From contig JAJXYC010000002.1 in NCBI GenBank assembly GCA_021780815.1, forward strand, positions 55,257-119,256: 64,000 nt of DNA. The letters are read 5' to 3'. Origin of the DNA: Bacteroidota bacterium. GTDB lineage: Bacteria; Bacteroidota; Ignavibacteria; Kapaibacteriales; UBA2268. The position numbers and the translations under genes were made by a program. Shown piece by piece: positions 11,903 to 23,840 of this stretch. The first letter of the stretch is position 1. Each line of letters begins with the position of its first letter. The notes under the pieces were generated by a model that saw only the letters and a program-made list of their open reading frames with translations, had not been told where the DNA came from and searched no databases.

Positions 11903-12194
11903 CATCATATTATAATAAAAATATTATAGCACATTATAGAACACGTAAATTATAAATAAATTTATCCACAATTGATTTACTTAATAATTATTTTAAGTTA
12001 TTATTTCATCAATTTTATATACATAATCTTAATTCTATTTCTATTTTTATCATAGACATTATTACCTATTTTTAAAAACAATTTATACTAAATAACTAAA
12101 GCAAAATTTATTTACTTTTCATCAACATACCTTCAAGTTAGTTTCGCACTTGTCATTTTTTATAATTATTAAATTTTAAATTGAAGAGGTCGTT
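11903..12194. other. AT-rich spacer before the phage-like block
   Basis: No gene or clear hairpin was recognised in these 292 bases. The only strong element is the AAGAGG ribosome-binding site (ttgaagaggtcgtt) just before the ATG at 12195. The region must hold the promoter of the phage-like operon unless it reads through from rfbC. No att-like direct repeat against the far end of the block was seen. Confidence 0.4.
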
Positions 12195-13097
12195 ATGTGG
12201 ATTGAAGTATTCAAAACTGGCGAACACACTGATTCAAACGGGAACATCTTTACTTACACAGCCGAAGATTTAACAAGAATTTCAAATCAATATAATGCAC
12301 AAGTTCAAACATCTCCTAATTCAAAAGCGCCACTTGTTTTAGGTCATCCCGAGTCAAATGAACCAGCCTACGGTTGGATTGAAATGCTTGTACGTCGTGG
12401 GAATTACTTACTTGCAAAAATATCTAATGTGTCTTCTGAAATGGCAGAAGCAATCAAAAATCACAATTTCACAAAAGTTTCAATTTCTCTTTCTCCAAAT
12501 TTGGAATTACAACACGTCGGTCTGCTTGGTGCTGTAAATCCTGCAATTAAAAACTTAAATCCAAATTTTTTTGAAATGGATTATTCCCCTACTTCTGATT
12601 TTCAAGAAAGCAATTTTAACGATGAAACTGATAATTCAGAAGAAAATTCAAACATTGAATATTTAAATGAATTAATTAATGAGAATACCTATCTTAAATC
12701 TAAATTACAAGAATTTATTGAAGAAAATAGAAATCGTAACTTTTCTCAATTTGTTCAAGATTTACAATCTATGGGAAAAATTTCCAAATTAAATTCCCAA
12801 AATGTATTGTCTGCACTTCATTATTTTCAAACAATAGACATTGAAACAAATGAAAAGTACTCAGCCACTGTGTATTTTATGAATTTTATGAAAACAATGG
12901 GGAACAATTCCTATAAAAGTGAGTTTGCACGAAAAGAAGATGCTTTGACCATACATTCTACAAATTCTATGATAAATTCAAAAAATTTAAACCCTGAACG
13001 GAAGGAATTGCATGAAAAAGTTTTGCGTTATATGGAAAATGATACATCTCTTTCTTATGAACAAGCACTTGCTAAAATAATTAGTAATGAATCTTAA
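12195..13097 (+). CDS. Phage Mu I-like prohead protease/scaffold protein
   Basis: Predicted capsid maturation protease fused to a scaffold, 300 residues. The N-terminal 130 residues carry the family pattern: a substrate-loop LVLGHPESNEPAYGWIE with a candidate catalytic His (H51), KVSISLSPNLE with candidate Ser residues (S96/S98), and HVGLLGAVNPAIKNL, which closely matches the end of the Mu gpI protease domain. Residues 150-185 (LNELINENTYLKSKLQEFIEENRNR) look like a coiled-coil scaffold, and the C-terminal part is helical and charged. The capsid gene follows after 47 bases, the classic protease-scaffold-capsid order. The family call is confident; the catalytic residues are inferred from position only. 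Confidence 0.82.
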   Translation: MWIEVFKTGEHTDSNGNIFTYTAEDLTRISNQYNAQVQTSPNSKAPLVLGHPESNEPAYGWIEMLVRRGNYLLAKISNVSSEMAEAIKNHNFTKVSISLSPNLELQHVGLLGAVNPAIKNLNPNFFEMDYSPTSDFQESNFNDETDNSEENSNIEYLNELINENTYLKSKLQEFIEENRNRNFSQFVQDLQSMGKISKLNSQNVLSALHYFQTIDIETNEKYSATVYFMNFMKTMGNNSYKSEFARKEDALTIHSTNSMINSKNLNPERKELHEKVLRYMENDTSLSYEQALAKIISNES

Positions 13098-13144
13098 TTA
13101 AAATTTAAATTAATTTATAAAACAAATAAAACTAAAGGTGTCCT

Positions 13145-14077
13145 ATGGTTGAAAGTCGTTTAGATACATTGAGAATAGTTGACCCTGTTCTTACAAATCT
13201 TGCTTTAGGTTATTCGCCTAATTATATGATTGGAAATCAAATATTTCCAACAATCAAAGTAAAATCACAAAAAGGACGTATTCCTATTTTTGGACGTGAT
13301 TCTTTTGTTTTAAGAAATTCACAAAGAGCAATAAGAATTACTTCTAACAGAATACCTACAATGGATTTTGAAACAATAGAATTTAATTTGCAAGAACGTG
13401 ATTTGGAAATTGCAATGGATTACTTGGAAGAAAGCGAAACTTATGATTTACTTAAATATGAACAAAAACTAACAACAGATTTGCTTAATTTATTAGCACT
13501 CGAAAAAGAAAAAGCCATTGCAGATTATGTCCAAAATCCAAATAACTTTACTTCTGATATGAAATTAGAATTGCCTCCAGACACAGATTTCACAAGTTCC
13601 GAAGAAATTATTAATATAATTAAAACAGGTATATCTGCCGTAAGAAAAAATATTTCCCAAAATCCAAACTTAATTGTAATGGGAACAGAAACATTGAATC
13701 AGTTGCTGCAAAATTCATTTATTTTATCTAAAACTCCGTTTACTAATAATTTGGGAGTTACATTAAACTTACTTAAAGGGATATTAGATTTTGAAAATAT
13801 AGTAATTGGCGTAAGTACTTATTCAGAAGATAGCAGGATATTTAATGATATTTGGGGTAACAATATAATTATTGCTTATGTGGACAAATCCGATGAAACA
13901 GAGCGTTCTCAATATAACCCAAGTTACGGATATATTTTTGAGAAAGACGGAATGCCCGAAATAGATTCATATTACGAAAACGGCGGTAAAATCAAAATCA
14001 TTCGTGCAACAGACAATTGGTCTATGAAAGTCGTTTGTCCAGAAGCGGCATATTTAATCAAAACATCAATATCTTAA
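13145..14077 (+). CDS. Phage major capsid protein (HK97-fold type)
   Basis: A 310-residue shell protein preceded by AAGGTG. The N-terminus IVDPVLTNLALGYSPNYMIG followed by QIFPTIKVKSQKGRIPIFGRD is the pattern seen in many phage major capsid proteins (conserved Pro-rich strand, then a FGRDSF-type loop). It continues with NRIPTMDFETIEFNLQERDLEI and a peripheral helical segment. The C-terminus WSMKVVCPEAAYLIKTSIS fits the final A-domain strand of this family. Its place after the protease/scaffold and before the decoration gene supports the assignment. No stop or frameshift was seen, so the gene appears functional. Confidence 0.85.
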   Translation: MVESRLDTLRIVDPVLTNLALGYSPNYMIGNQIFPTIKVKSQKGRIPIFGRDSFVLRNSQRAIRITSNRIPTMDFETIEFNLQERDLEIAMDYLEESETYDLLKYEQKLTTDLLNLLALEKEKAIADYVQNPNNFTSDMKLELPPDTDFTSSEEIINIIKTGISAVRKNISQNPNLIVMGTETLNQLLQNSFILSKTPFTNNLGVTLNLLKGILDFENIVIGVSTYSEDSRIFNDIWGNNIIIAYVDKSDETERSQYNPSYGYIFEKDGMPEIDSYYENGGKIKIIRATDNWSMKVVCPEAAYLIKTSIS

Positions 14078-14112
14078 ATTCAAACATTTTAATTAATAAA
14101 AGGAGATAAGTC

Positions 14113-14451
14113 ATGACACCTAATTTAAGTTATCAACCAGTATTAAGGTTAACAATAAAAGCAGCAGAAGATATACCCGCTTACAGATTAGTTGATTTTA
14201 CGGGACATTTATCTACCACCAACGGGAACATTCTTGGAGTCTCTGATTATCCTGCTTTAGCAGGTGAATTAATTTCTTTAATTGTATTAGGAACTGCTAT
14301 TGTAAGTACAAGTAGTACACTTAACGTGGGAGATGGAATTATTCCCGACGGCACTGGACAAGCAACTATGGCAAGTTTAAGCGACACTCCAGATGGAACT
14401 GTGATAAATTCCAGTGTAAATTATTCTGAAATTTTATTATATCATAAATAG
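14113..14451 (+). CDS. Capsid decoration/cement-like protein
   Basis: A small beta-rich protein of 112 residues with a strong AGGAGA site. The sequence reads like DUF2190-type decoration proteins: AAEDIPAYRLVDF, then a turn with NGNILGVSDYPALAGELISLIVLGTA, then LNVGDGIIPDGTGQATMA. This alternation of short strands with Gly-Asp turns and an ALAGE segment is typical. It sits directly behind the major capsid gene, where such proteins are encoded. The predicted role is stabilising the mature capsid. The call rests on pattern and position, so a general head protein is possible. Confidence 0.66.
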   Translation: MTPNLSYQPVLRLTIKAAEDIPAYRLVDFTGHLSTTNGNILGVSDYPALAGELISLIVLGTAIVSTSSTLNVGDGIIPDGTGQATMASLSDTPDGTVINSSVNYSEILLYHK

Positions 14452-14462
14452 TTGAGGAAAAA

Positions 14463-14756
14463 ATGCTTGAAAATATCAAAAGTTTTTTATTGAGAAATGG
14501 TCTCTGGGTTTCTCTTGGTATTATTGCCTTTGCAATCTTAAATCCAGGAATGACTGAAATTCGCACACTGCTGTTTCTGATTTTAATTGAAATTTTAGCA
14601 CTTGGATTGGCTAGTTTATCAACATTTATCTATACAAATATCTATACAAAATTAGACTTTATCAAAGAACAGTCAATCCAAACTTTAGGCCTCATATTTT
14701 TAGGAGTTCATTTTTTAATTGGATTAAGTGTAATCGGGATTTATTATGTCATATAA
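14463..14756 (+). CDS. Small three-TM membrane protein, possible holin
   Basis: A 97-residue protein with three predicted membrane segments (about residues 13-30, 34-56, 73-95) and a short charged N-terminus. It starts 11 bases after the decoration gene with a GAGGA site. It precedes the endolysin gene by 11 bases, where holins are usually encoded, and size and topology fit a class I holin. There is no family-specific motif, so the holin role is inferred from topology and position. Confidence 0.55.
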   Translation: MLENIKSFLLRNGLWVSLGIIAFAILNPGMTEIRTLLFLILIEILALGLASLSTFIYTNIYTKLDFIKEQSIQTLGLIFLGVHFLIGLSVIGIYYVI

Positions 14757-14767
14757 GGAGAATTAAA

Positions 14768-15352
14768 ATGAAAAAGATAATTTTATATTTGGTTTTCCCA
14801 TTGCTTTTTATTTCAACTGAACTTTACGCTCAAGAAAAATACAATTTGGAAGCAAAAAAGATTGTACTTAATCAATCCCGAGAAATTGGTCTGCAACAAG
14901 TGGGAATAACTGAAAAAACTAACCATAACGATGGATTAGTTGTAAAATATCTGATTCCCTTCGGTTTACCCGAAGGGAATCCTTACTGTGCAGCTGGAAT
15001 TTATTGGACTTTTTTAATCGCTGTGCAAAACCTAAATTTATCTCCAAGCGATATCCCTATTCCTAAAACTCCATTGGCAAATCAAATTTTTAATTATGCT
15101 AAGAATAAAGGCAAAAAAGTAAAGTTTTCTCCGAAAATAAATGATTTAATTATTTGGCGTAAATCAAATACTCCTTTTGGTCATATTGAACGAATTATGA
15201 CTATTGAAGATAGACATTGGGTTATTACACTTGCTTTTAATGTAAAAAGTGAAATAACTAGAAAAGAAGGTGTTTGTCTCAAAAGAAGAAATATTCTTCA
15301 TCCACTTGGCAGATTGTCTATTCGTGGTCTTGTTGGTTTTCAGGAGCTATAA
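14768..15352 (+). CDS. Signal-peptide-bearing CHAP-like endolysin/peptidoglycan hydrolase
   Basis: A predicted wall hydrolase of 194 residues. Residues 1-21 are a Sec signal peptide (MKKIILYLVFPLLFISTELYA). The catalytic domain shows the CHAP/NlpC-like pattern: REIGLQQVGITEKTNHNDG, the catalytic Cys in PYCAAGIYW, the His in FGHIERI, and EGVCLKRRN near the end. The signal peptide implies export without needing a holin, as in signal-arrest-release or Sec-dependent endolysins. The AAGGAGA site is strong. The stop codon overlaps the next start in a TAATG, suggesting translational coupling. A cellular hydrolase is conceivable, but the context favours lysis. Confidence 0.75.
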   Translation: MKKIILYLVFPLLFISTELYAQEKYNLEAKKIVLNQSREIGLQQVGITEKTNHNDGLVVKYLIPFGLPEGNPYCAAGIYWTFLIAVQNLNLSPSDIPIPKTPLANQIFNYAKNKGKKVKFSPKINDLIIWRKSNTPFGHIERIMTIEDRHWVITLAFNVKSEITRKEGVCLKRRNILHPLGRLSIRGLVGFQEL

Positions 15353-15801
15353 TGAACACAAATACGAAAGTTATATCTGGAATAATATTATTCATTGCAT
15401 TGCTAATACTTTTCTTTTGGTTGAACAATAATTTGAAATATGACAAATATATTGCAAATATTGAAAAATCATCTAACGATATAATTTATGATACAATTTA
15501 CAAATATGAACGACCTAAAATAATTGAAATACAACAAGCAAAACCAAAAATCAAATATATTAGAGATACGATAATTACAACAAAACCTTTTATCGCTCAA
15601 ATTGATACTATTGTTAAAAAAGACACAGTTCAAATATTTTACACATATCCAGAAAATTTACTATCAATGAAAATAAATCAAACTAACGATTCAACAATGA
15701 TTATAAAGCAAATTGATTATAGAGAAAAAGAGCGAAGTTGGTGGGAAACACCTGCATTAATCATTTCTGGTATTTTAGTTGGTTATATTATTACTAAATA
15801 A
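15352..15801 (+). CDS. Small membrane-anchored protein, possible spanin or lysis accessory
   Basis: A 149-residue protein starting at the ATG of a TAATG overlap with the endolysin; AGGAG lies 6 bases upstream, so this start is preferred over the longer frame from 15274. An N-terminal TM segment (VISGIILFIALLILFFWL) is followed by a Lys/Ile/Thr-rich periplasmic-type stretch with repeated DTI/DTV elements (IYDTIYKY, IRDTIITT, KDTVQIFY) and a C-terminal hydrophobic segment (ALIISGILVGYIIT). Its position after an endolysin resembles Rz-type spanins or small Bacteroidota phage proteins with DTV repeats. No family is recognised with confidence. Confidence 0.55.
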   Translation: MNTNTKVISGIILFIALLILFFWLNNNLKYDKYIANIEKSSNDIIYDTIYKYERPKIIEIQQAKPKIKYIRDTIITTKPFIAQIDTIVKKDTVQIFYTYPENLLSMKINQTNDSTMIIKQIDYREKERSWWETPALIISGILVGYIITK

Positions 15802-15819
15802 TAAATAAGAAGGTGCAAA

Positions 15820-16890
15820 ATGATTGGAACAAATTATGAAGATATACTCGGTAGCACACCACTTTTAACAACTGAACTTGTTAGTCGGGATAATTCGCTT
15901 ACTTTCCATAAATTTATTGGCATATTGCCCAATCCCAATCAAGTAATTACAGAACAGGGAAGTATTAGCAAAGCTTTTGCTAACTTAAAAAATGACCCTC
16001 ACGTTTGGAGCTGCGTTCAATCACGGAAAACAGGAGTTTCGGCATTATCTTATGAAATCACTAATCAATCTACCGAAACCAATATACATACTTTCATCTC
16101 TCAAATTTTTGCGGAATTGGATTTATATAATTTCATATCTAATATATTGGAGGCAATTTTTACGGGATTCCAAGTCCTTGAAATAATTTGGAGTGAAAAT
16201 GATGAAGGATACTTAATTCCTGCTGAAATTATTGCCAAACCTTTAGACTGGTTTTATTTTGATATGAATAATCAATTGAGATTCCGTAAAAAAGGTGAGA
16301 CTACCGGATTATTATTGCCTGAAAACAAATTTTTAATCCCACGACATAACCCAAGTTTTGAAAATCCTTATGGTGAAGCCTTACTTTCTAAATGTTTTTG
16401 GGCTGTTACAACGAAAAATATGGGCTTCCGTTTTTGGATGAACTTCTTAGAAAAATATGGTATGCCTCTTGTTATTGGGCAATATACTTATCCACCTACT
16501 GCCGAAGAATTGCAAAATTTAAGCTTACGATTAAAAGACTTGATTGATAGTCAAACTATTGCCGCTCCATCTGATATTTCTATTGATATTAAGGATTTAG
16601 GTGCTTCCAAATCAGTAGATTTATATTCCCAATTAATTAAAATGGCTAATTCAGAAATTTCCAAAGTATTACTTTCTGAAACACTCACAACAGAAATGGA
16701 TTCGGGTTCTTATGCCGCTTCCATTACACATTTTAAAGTTAAGCAAGAAGTTGCATTAAGTGATGTTAAATTAGTGGAAAATACTTTAAATATTTTAATT
16801 AATATGATTTTAAATGTCAATAATTTAGAAAGTAAAATTAAAGTATCATCTATACCAAGATTCAAACTCAAAACAAACACAATGCAATAA
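15820..16890 (+). CDS. Mu-like portal protein (DUF935/gp29 family)
   Basis: The portal forms the ring through which DNA enters a capsid. This 356-residue protein shows family features: SISKAFANLKNDPHVWSCVQSRK, ISNILEAIFTGFQVLEIIW, IIAKPLDWFYFD followed by NNQLRFRKKGE, and NPYGEALLSKCFWAVTTKNM with FWMNFLEKYGMP. It ends in a helical segment with LLSETLTTEMDSGSYAASITH, where a Gly-Ser-Tyr-Ala motif is typical. It is shorter than Mu gp29 (around 500 residues), lacking extra C-terminal sequence. It has a GAAGGTG site and lies after the lysis genes rather than before the protease, an unusual order. Confidence 0.85.
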   Translation: MIGTNYEDILGSTPLLTTELVSRDNSLTFHKFIGILPNPNQVITEQGSISKAFANLKNDPHVWSCVQSRKTGVSALSYEITNQSTETNIHTFISQIFAELDLYNFISNILEAIFTGFQVLEIIWSENDEGYLIPAEIIAKPLDWFYFDMNNQLRFRKKGETTGLLLPENKFLIPRHNPSFENPYGEALLSKCFWAVTTKNMGFRFWMNFLEKYGMPLVIGQYTYPPTAEELQNLSLRLKDLIDSQTIAAPSDISIDIKDLGASKSVDLYSQLIKMANSEISKVLLSETLTTEMDSGSYAASITHFKVKQEVALSDVKLVENTLNILINMILNVNNLESKIKVSSIPRFKLKTNTMQ

Positions 16891-16970: not shown

Positions 16971-17000
16971 AAATCCGATGATTTCGCAATCATCGGATTT
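16971..17000. terminator. Bidirectional hairpin terminator
   Basis: AAATCCGATGATT (16971-16983) and AATCATCGGATTT (16988-17000) form a perfect 13-bp stem with a TCGC loop. On the minus strand it is followed by ATTTTTC, so it can end the convergent transcript from 17458; on the plus strand it follows the portal gene by 80 bases. It marks the right limit of the phage-like block. Confidence 0.75.
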
Positions 17001-18474: not shown

Positions 18475-18770
18475 TCGGGAGCAACCGCTTGTGGTAACAA
18501 CGCTAGCGCAAAAACGCTACAAAGCAGAGCGGAACTACCACACCTCCCGCAATTGCTTTGTAGCACTGTCGCAATAAATTTCCACTCGCAGTTGTATTTA
18601 AATAATTTTTCTCGGCAAAATTTATTTGAACAAGATAATTCCTTTTTCTTTGGAATATTTGCACTAATCGCTGTTTCAATACAATAAAAATAAATTTGAA
18701 GCGTCCCCATAAAGCCATAAAGCCATAAAGCCATAAAGCCATAAAGCCCATCTTATGCCCTTTTCCCTAC
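18475..18770 (-). repeat. Dispersed repeat element, copy 1 (chimeric 5' part)
   Basis: The segment 18571-18770 is homologous to parts of copies at 20483-20806 and 23341-23648: it starts with GCAATAAATTTCCACTCGCA and ends with an array of five CCATAAAG units followed by atgccctttt. The 18475-18570 part is not shared with the others and contains inverted GCTACAAAGCA/TGCTTTGTAGC arms; a related stretch occurs at about 21122. The element lies about 60 bases upstream of the lipoprotein start at 18404. Confidence 0.8.
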
Positions 18771-18840
18771 TTCCCTCTTTCCCTGTATTTTTATTGTATT
18801 TAAGAATCATTTTTTCTTTTTTGCTTCCTACACTTTTTTT

Positions 18841-20445: not shown

Positions 20446-20482
20446 TTTACATTACCTTTTTTTTACTTAAAATTATTTAATT

Positions 20483-20806
20483 TTTCGGGCATTACTGCAC
20501 AATTCTAGACTTTCGCCCTACCCAATAGAACTGCGGGCGGTTTGTGCGGACCTTTGCTCATTGCCAAAACAAACCATATTGTTTCGGGAAAATAGCACCA
20601 GTCCGCTATTCGCAATGAATTTCCACTCGCAGTTTTGTATAAATAATTTTTCTCTACAAAATTTATTTGAACAAAGTAATTTCTCTTTCTTTGGAATATT
20701 TGAATAAATCGCAGTTTTAATACAATAAAAATATTTTTGAAGCGCCCACATAAAGCCATAAAGCCATAAAGCCATAAAGCCATAAAGCCCACTCTATGCC
20801 CTTTTC
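20483..20806 (-). repeat. Dispersed repeat element, copy 2
   Basis: Starts TTTCGGGCATTACTGCAC and matches copy 3 (23341) with only about four differences over the first 150 bases. Inner segments GCGGGCGGTTTGTGCGGACC and CAATGAATTTCCACTCGCAG are identical. It ends in five CATAAAGC units and ctatgcccttttc. Its G+C is visibly higher than the surroundings in the first half. It lies about 40 bases before the lipoprotein start at 20445. Confidence 0.9.
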
Positions 20807-20962
20807 TGAACTCCCCTCTTTTCTCTCTATGTATCCCTTTATTTCTATCATACTTTTTACATTCTTGCAAAAACTTTCTTTTCTAATTTAACAAATTCTT
20901 TATATATAAAGAGTGTTTTTTTCGAAAAAAGTTACAGTCAGATGCAAAAAAAATTTTTCTGC

Positions 20963-23299: not shown

Positions 23300-23340
23300 T
23301 TTAAATTACTCTTTTTTAATTTACAAAATTTATTTATTTT

Positions 23341-23648
23341 TTTCGGGCATTACTGCACAGTTCCAAACTTTCGCCCTGCCCAATAGAACTGCGGGCGGTT
23401 TGTGCGGACCTTTGCTCATTGCCAAAACAAACCATATTGTTTCGGGAAAATAGCACCAGTCCGCTATTCGCAATGAATTTCCACTCGCAGTTGTAAATAA
23501 ATAATTTTTCTCGGCAAAATTTATTTGAACAAAGTAATTTCTCTTTCTTTGGAAAATTTGCACTATTCGCAGTTTCAATACAATAAAAATATTTTTGAAG
23601 CATCTCCATAAAGCCATAAAGCCATAAAGCCCACTCTATGCCCTTTTT
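23341..23648 (-). repeat. Dispersed repeat element, copy 3
   Basis: Nearly identical to copy 2 over its first 150 bases. The 8-bp CCATAAAG array has only three units here against five in copies 1 and 2, so it behaves like a variable-number tandem repeat. It lies about 40 bases upstream of the secreted-protein start at 23299, in the same orientation as the other copies relative to their genes. Confidence 0.9.
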
Positions 23649-23840
23649 CCTCTTTCCCGCCTTCTCTTTATTTTTATTTCCTTCTTGCATTTATTTTTTC
23701 TATTTGCAAATTATACTTTTTCTAATTTAACAAATTCTTTTTTATATAATAACACAAATTTTTGAAAAAAATTACAGTCAGATGCAAAAAAATTTTAATT
23801 TTTTTTTGCATTCCCATTTTTTTCCTTGTCATTTCCGTGT

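Follow-up and report, generated by a model that had tools for sequence, protein, structure and literature searches.

In a 64,000-nucleotide stretch of the genome of a Bacteroidota bacterium (Ignavibacteria; Kapaibacteriales; UBA2268; GenBank assembly GCA_021780815.1, contig JAJXYC010000002.1, positions 55,257 to 119,256), referred to here as the window and numbered from its first letter, we analyzed a compact set of phage-type head and lysis genes, which a preliminary description had read as a capsid operon lacking terminase and tail. The seven genes form a single tight operon on the plus strand (12195 to 16890), with all frames intact and only short gaps or overlaps, and reading frames and profile matches bore out the proposed capsid, lysis, and portal content. 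The first gene encodes a head maturation protease of 300 amino acids (aa) (12195 to 13097; phrog_976, 3.9e-46). It is followed by the genes for the major capsid protein (310 aa; 13145 to 14077), which matched the major head protein family phrog_1005 (1.8e-68) and the profile of PDB entry 3bjq (8e-48), and for a capsid cement or decoration protein (112 aa; 14113 to 14451; PF09956, 1.1e-4; phrog_673, 3e-12). Next come a holin-like membrane protein (97 aa; 14463 to 14756), whose homolog lies 5' of the CHAP gene in the true prophages L182, L251, and L268, a CHAP-domain cell wall hydrolase or endolysin with a signal-peptide-like start (194 aa; 14768 to 15352), and a protein with two transmembrane (TM) segments in the spanin position (15352 to 15801; 149 aa, counted from an ATG overlapping the CHAP stop), whose prophage homolog lies 3' of the CHAP gene. 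The PF05257 match of the CHAP protein (0.001) is below the Pfam cutoff; homologs in relatives occupy the same place, and the protein is conserved in 29 loci and its two-TM neighbor in 28. Profile searches gave no family match for either membrane protein. The last gene encodes a Mu-type portal (356 aa; 15820 to 16890; Portal_Mu PF06074, 1.3e-73).

A promoter motif, TTTACTTTT-N19-TAGTTTCGCA, lies on the plus strand at 12111 to 12148, 46 nt 5' of the protease start. In the form TTTACTTT-N19-TAnTTTTGC it recurs upstream of the operons of relatives across the family, and its second box resembles the Bacteroidota TAnnTTTG element. At the other end, a hairpin terminator readable on both strands (16971 to 17000) has a 13-bp stem and a fold z-score of -3.0. 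The flanks are ordinary chromosomal genes, as described before, with DnaJ, a sugar nucleotidyltransferase, and RmlC upstream. No att-type direct repeats were found flanking the operon ends, no Rfam or PADLOC defense family was matched, and no NCBIfam family was matched by the operon proteins.

No gene for a terminase, tail, integrase, or transposase belonging to this element was seen inside the window, and to that extent the label "terminase-less" held, but it failed for the genome as a whole. Each terminase domain had exactly one match in the host genome (G000, contig C17, 36580 to 37974, minus strand). This terminase gene is intact and lies on the same contig as the operon and on the opposite strand, 29.5 kb from it and about 18 kb left of the window; the two loci together span about 35 kb of chromosome. 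Terminase domains were present in 35 of the 36 sampled genomes of the host family, and in almost all family genomes operon and terminase occupy separate chromosomal loci. At each of the 20 terminase loci that we fetched, the gene is on its own, and the neighbors differ between loci. The terminase motifs are conserved, including Walker A (PPRHGKS), Walker B (IDDP), and the acidic residues of the C-terminal nuclease. Linked forms are also present: the terminase of congener G002 lies about 110 bp 5' of the protease gene on the same strand, and it likewise stands immediately 5' of the protease gene in the IMG/VR contigs L200 (G002 lineage) and L282 (a deeper branch). In G001, with 85 to 90% DNA identity to G002, other genes directly follow the terminase stop and the operon is on another contig. 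A common promoter for operon and terminase was considered and set aside, the motif being clear at the former and weak at the latter.

Missing parts were sought with family profiles only, the tail search comprising single profiles for the sheath and one tape-measure family, plus MuF, in 36 to 60 genomes. The earlier suggestion that terminase, MuF, and tail genes might sit in separate clusters came true for the lone terminase; no sheath, tape-measure, or MuF gene was found in the host genome by this search, in agreement with the description of the set as tail-less. Sheath genes occurred in 2 of the 36 family genomes, the host genome not among them. Most tape-measure genes were on contigs that also have phage-size portals, and MuF was restricted to genomes that contain prophage-type loci. 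An intact prophage would have its full head, tail, and replication genes in a single block, and no such block was found for this element.

The operon genes were detected in 32 of the 36 family genomes, representing about 26 genera, normally in one copy. The named records of this group are metagenome-assembled genomes (MAGs) of Kapabacteria or Ignavibacteria within the Bacteroidota. None of 24 genomes from nine sister families carried the operon, the two portal hits there being phage-sized, and a phylum-wide sample of 395 genomes added few further portals, mostly of phage size. The gene order in the family is protease, capsid, cement, [Gp36], holin, CHAP, [jelly-roll], [variable fiber-like gene], [coiled-coil TM gene], two-TM protein, and portal, with optional genes in brackets. 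The Gp36 adaptor and the jelly-roll gene are kept in most relatives and the variable fiber in some (a fiber-type N terminus was recognized in 10 of 26 judgeable operons), and all three are missing from the host genus and its sister genus. The predicted structure of the jelly-roll protein (c8; pLDDT confidence score, 88.7) resembled only generic carbohydrate-binding and ephrin-receptor-like folds.

The operon is under strong purifying selection and is no remnant. Pairwise ratios of nonsynonymous to synonymous substitution rates (dN/dS) between related copies, a check proposed in the preliminary description, were 0.016 to 0.047 for the capsid, 0.042 to 0.080 for the portal, 0.03 to 0.06 for the lone terminase, 0.10 to 0.12 for the protease, and mostly 0.10 to 0.15 for the CHAP protein. 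Together with the intact frames and the family-wide presence, these values uphold the earlier argument against simple decay. The operon tree followed that of RpoB (Mantel r, 0.70, with 0 of 5,000 permutations as high; quartet agreement, 0.65 versus 0.34 for random), as did the terminase tree (Mantel r, 0.67, 2 of 5,000; quartet agreement, 0.88), and the operon and terminase trees agreed with each other (Mantel, 0.54, 0 of 5,000). Synteny, the other suggested check for vertical inheritance, pointed the same way among close relatives: flanking genes are shared within the groups L171 to L174; L146, L148, L152, and L193; L161 and L167; L162 and L163; and L156 and L159. The position of the operon is thus stable in the short term and shifts over longer times. 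In three congeners RmlC is directly followed by another gene, and the operon site is therefore empty there.

The set is homologous to parts of Mu-like prophages. In quick trees of capsid, portal, and terminase, some rows of which are long, all phages fell on one side of a single branch with support of 99, 97, and 91, respectively, which suggests that the three pieces probably share one domestication event. The nearest phages are the prophage L182, in the complete Ch6 genome, and the IMG/VR contigs L260 and L268. Their late operon reads protease, capsid, cement, Gp36, two small genes, holin, CHAP, two-TM protein, and further genes, and their portal and terminase genes run divergently from it. 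This head-lysis-tail order with a divergent terminase and portal explains the odd position of the lysis genes between capsid and portal: the present operon is the front half of such a late operon, which has lost its later part and now ends in a shortened portal gene, the terminase having been separated from it. Operon portals have 336 to 405 aa, versus a phage median of 487 aa, and most end near residues 340 to 385 of the 483-aa L182 portal. The portal in the window ends at about residue 344 and lacks roughly the last 100 to 140 residues of phage portals. Its predicted fold, modeled with moderate confidence (pLDDT, 66), gave the JBD30 and Mu neck portals as best Foldseek matches. The Mu-like prophages from Bacteroidota and other phyla (L182, L251, and L268, and Mu and JBD30 for the portal) share with the operon homologous protease, capsid, cement, Gp36, holin, CHAP, two-TM, portal, and terminase proteins and the head-to-lysis order, but differ in their divergent terminase-portal-MuF genes, the extra genes that follow their lysis cassette, longer portals (about 460 to 550 aa), and their separate side of all three trees.

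We consider the operon and the lone terminase to be, with a probability of about three in four, a gene transfer agent (GTA) that this Kapabacteria-type family domesticated independently and passes on vertically. Among the readings offered in the preliminary description, a split-locus GTA is strongly favored by the separate terminase, the near-universal and mostly single-copy presence, the conserved sites in close relatives, and the purifying selection. By the published definition, a GTA consists of phage-derived proteins that package mostly random host DNA, is endogenized, often at several loci, has a head too small for all of its own genes, is vertically inherited, and delivers DNA to other cells (PMC9662315). 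The sequence-testable parts of this definition fit the present set. The predicted protease, capsid, cement, portal, and terminase are homologous to families of tailed phages; the set is fully endogenized at separate loci, and the operon itself is also cut after the cement gene in G027 and its relatives (L161 and L167); and co-diversification with the host, in the sense of that definition (PMC9662315), was seen at shallow depth only.

Under some condition, transcription of the operon and of the unlinked terminase gene would start in a few cells. A procapsid would be built on the portal by the protease, capsid, and cement proteins, and the stand-alone terminase, with no phage genome left, would feed chromosomal DNA through the portal and fill the head; packaging may be random. 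The holin, the CHAP hydrolase, and the protein in the spanin position would then lyse the producer, presumably in a regulated manner, and set the heads free. The portal would be closed by the Gp36 adaptor in most relatives, and the jelly-roll and variable fiber proteins could provide attachment; in the host genus, which has lost all three, delivery would have to rely on the naked head, perhaps together with uptake of DNA by recipient cells. Tentatively, at somewhat short of even odds, we propose that the GTA is tail-less throughout the family, lysis-released, DNA-filled heads passing on DNA without a phage injection machine, e.g., through recipient DNA uptake, and the terminase now being an independent host gene. 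That it works in the host genus without even an adaptor or fiber is a similarly tentative proposal.

Several observations weigh against the GTA interpretation. Particle formation, DNA packaging, and transfer are inferred from the genes, and the loss of adaptor and fiber in the host genus leaves delivery unexplained. The search on two tail families plus MuF leaves room for a divergent tail locus. The tree congruence comes mostly from the host genus and its sister genus; when both were left out, the agreement with RpoB was not significant, and RpoB alone did not resolve the deep branches. The operon site differs between genera and even within the host genus, sharing of the operon promoter with the terminase is weakly supported (p = 0.016), and two copies look damaged, with a split portal frame in G028 (L093) and truncated CHAP and portal genes in G013 (L092).

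The room left by the tail search would suit a tailed GTA whose tail genes lie in a further, unrecognized locus. Known GTAs are often split over loci, that of Faecalibacterium (FpGTA) keeping its baseplate and lysis genes in a second locus (PMC12946183), and the Gp36 head-tail adaptor is kept in most relatives; in the genomes searched, however, sheath, tape-measure, and MuF genes occurred only on prophage-type contigs, and we regard this version as unlikely. Capsid-forming satellites carry head, portal, protease, and terminase genes and no tail, which is the content seen here, and Mu-like prophages that could lend tails to an element packaging its own small genome exist in some relatives. Such an element would be expected to have an integrase, att sites, and a scattered distribution, but we found no integrase, replication gene, regulator, or att repeats, about 30 operon loci are without phage gene neighbors, and the operon is near-universal in the family. 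A terminase usually far from the operon, the included lysis cassette, and the many carriers, the host genome among them, without recognizable helper tail genes also argue against the helper-dependent satellite of the preliminary description, which we judge quite improbable. The domesticated nanocompartment proposed there, i.e., a DNA-free shell or lysis-released protein particle with portal and terminase as passengers, would account for the missing tail and for a genus that lost adaptor and fiber yet kept its capsid. An encapsulin-type shell has no portal or packaging motor, but here both are conserved, with purifying selection as strong as that on the capsid and with the portal and the ATPase and nuclease motifs of the terminase intact, which makes this explanation very improbable. 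A decaying transposable-prophage remnant might be suggested by the homologous complete Mu-like prophages, whose late operon has the same front half, but it is highly implausible: selection and distribution largely refute it, with intact frames, low dN/dS, a conserved promoter, and the same gene subset family-wide. Complete prophages of this kind do exist, as the preliminary description had asked of a deletion remnant, but in the trees of capsid, portal, and terminase they lie on the other side.

Experimentally established GTAs are few and come mostly from Alphaproteobacteria. The GTA proposed here shares with RcGTA-type agents (Rhodogtaviriformidae) a domesticated phage head set that is endogenized and under selection, but those are tailed, and the RcGTA neck portal was only a distant structural match (rank 46). 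Compared by description rather than protein homology, FpGTA has a similarly compact head operon without long-tail genes, lysis genes, and two separated loci, and its particles show no visible tails. The FpGTA host belongs to the Bacillota, the terminase gene of FpGTA lies in the head operon, and its lysis genes are in the second locus with baseplate and fiber (PMC12946183); here the head operon includes the lysis genes, and the terminase is on its own. BhGTA, or VSH-1, of Brachyspira (Brachygtaviriformidae), also compared by description and not by protein homology, has a single conserved terminase outside the structural cluster and has co-diversified with its host genus, but it has a noncontractile tail, a 16.3-kb cluster, and a host of another phylum (PMC9662315). 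Among the papers searched we found none on GTAs in Kapabacteria or Ignavibacteria, an absence that is no proof of novelty, and this looks like a GTA that has not been described before. If true, it would be a further independent GTA origin, in Bacteroidota and family-wide, in which the stepwise change of a phage head into a host device would be visible (tail lost, portal shortened and moved, terminase freed, operon split), with linked-terminase forms still present. It also raises the questions of how DNA is delivered by a particle that has no tail genes and why genes for lysis and packaging are kept under selection in uncultured bacteria.

Some further observations concern related loci and the surroundings of the operon. 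Locus L163, closely related to L093 with the split portal, has the portal whole. It is labeled Desulfobulbaceae and was considered as a case of cross-phylum spread, but it is probably misbinned; its flanks and a 97% identical capsid are common with the Ignavibacteriae MAG L162. A single-sequence IMG/VR search with the capsid gave no match, alignment queries being needed. Two IMG/VR contigs, L282 (1 to 8175) and L201 (1 to 4862), carry a version of the set that branches more deeply and lacks the CHAP cassette. On L282, the genes for terminase, protease, capsid, cement, Gp36, jelly-roll protein, and a short portal are contiguous, with an apparent other cell wall peptidase gene 3' of the terminase and an IS200-like transposase upstream. 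Just right of the operon, the window contains a dispersed repeat of about 200 to 300 bp in three copies, 77 to 90% identical (18569 to 18780, 20610 to 20821, and 23468 to 23679, and also 20457 to 20756 and 23315 to 23614), whose frames, which translate into repeated MALWLYGFMALW peptides, are probably not genes. In another family of the class, the complete genome G344 has a lone 354-aa short portal near the middle of a 20-kb locus (L376), and neither a capsid nor a terminase gene is close to it. In family f29, five of the fetched genomes, most of them of one genus (g102), have related portals of 419 to 456 aa beside a protein of about 470 to 525 aa in phage-like blocks (L379 to L383), possibly another recurrent element.
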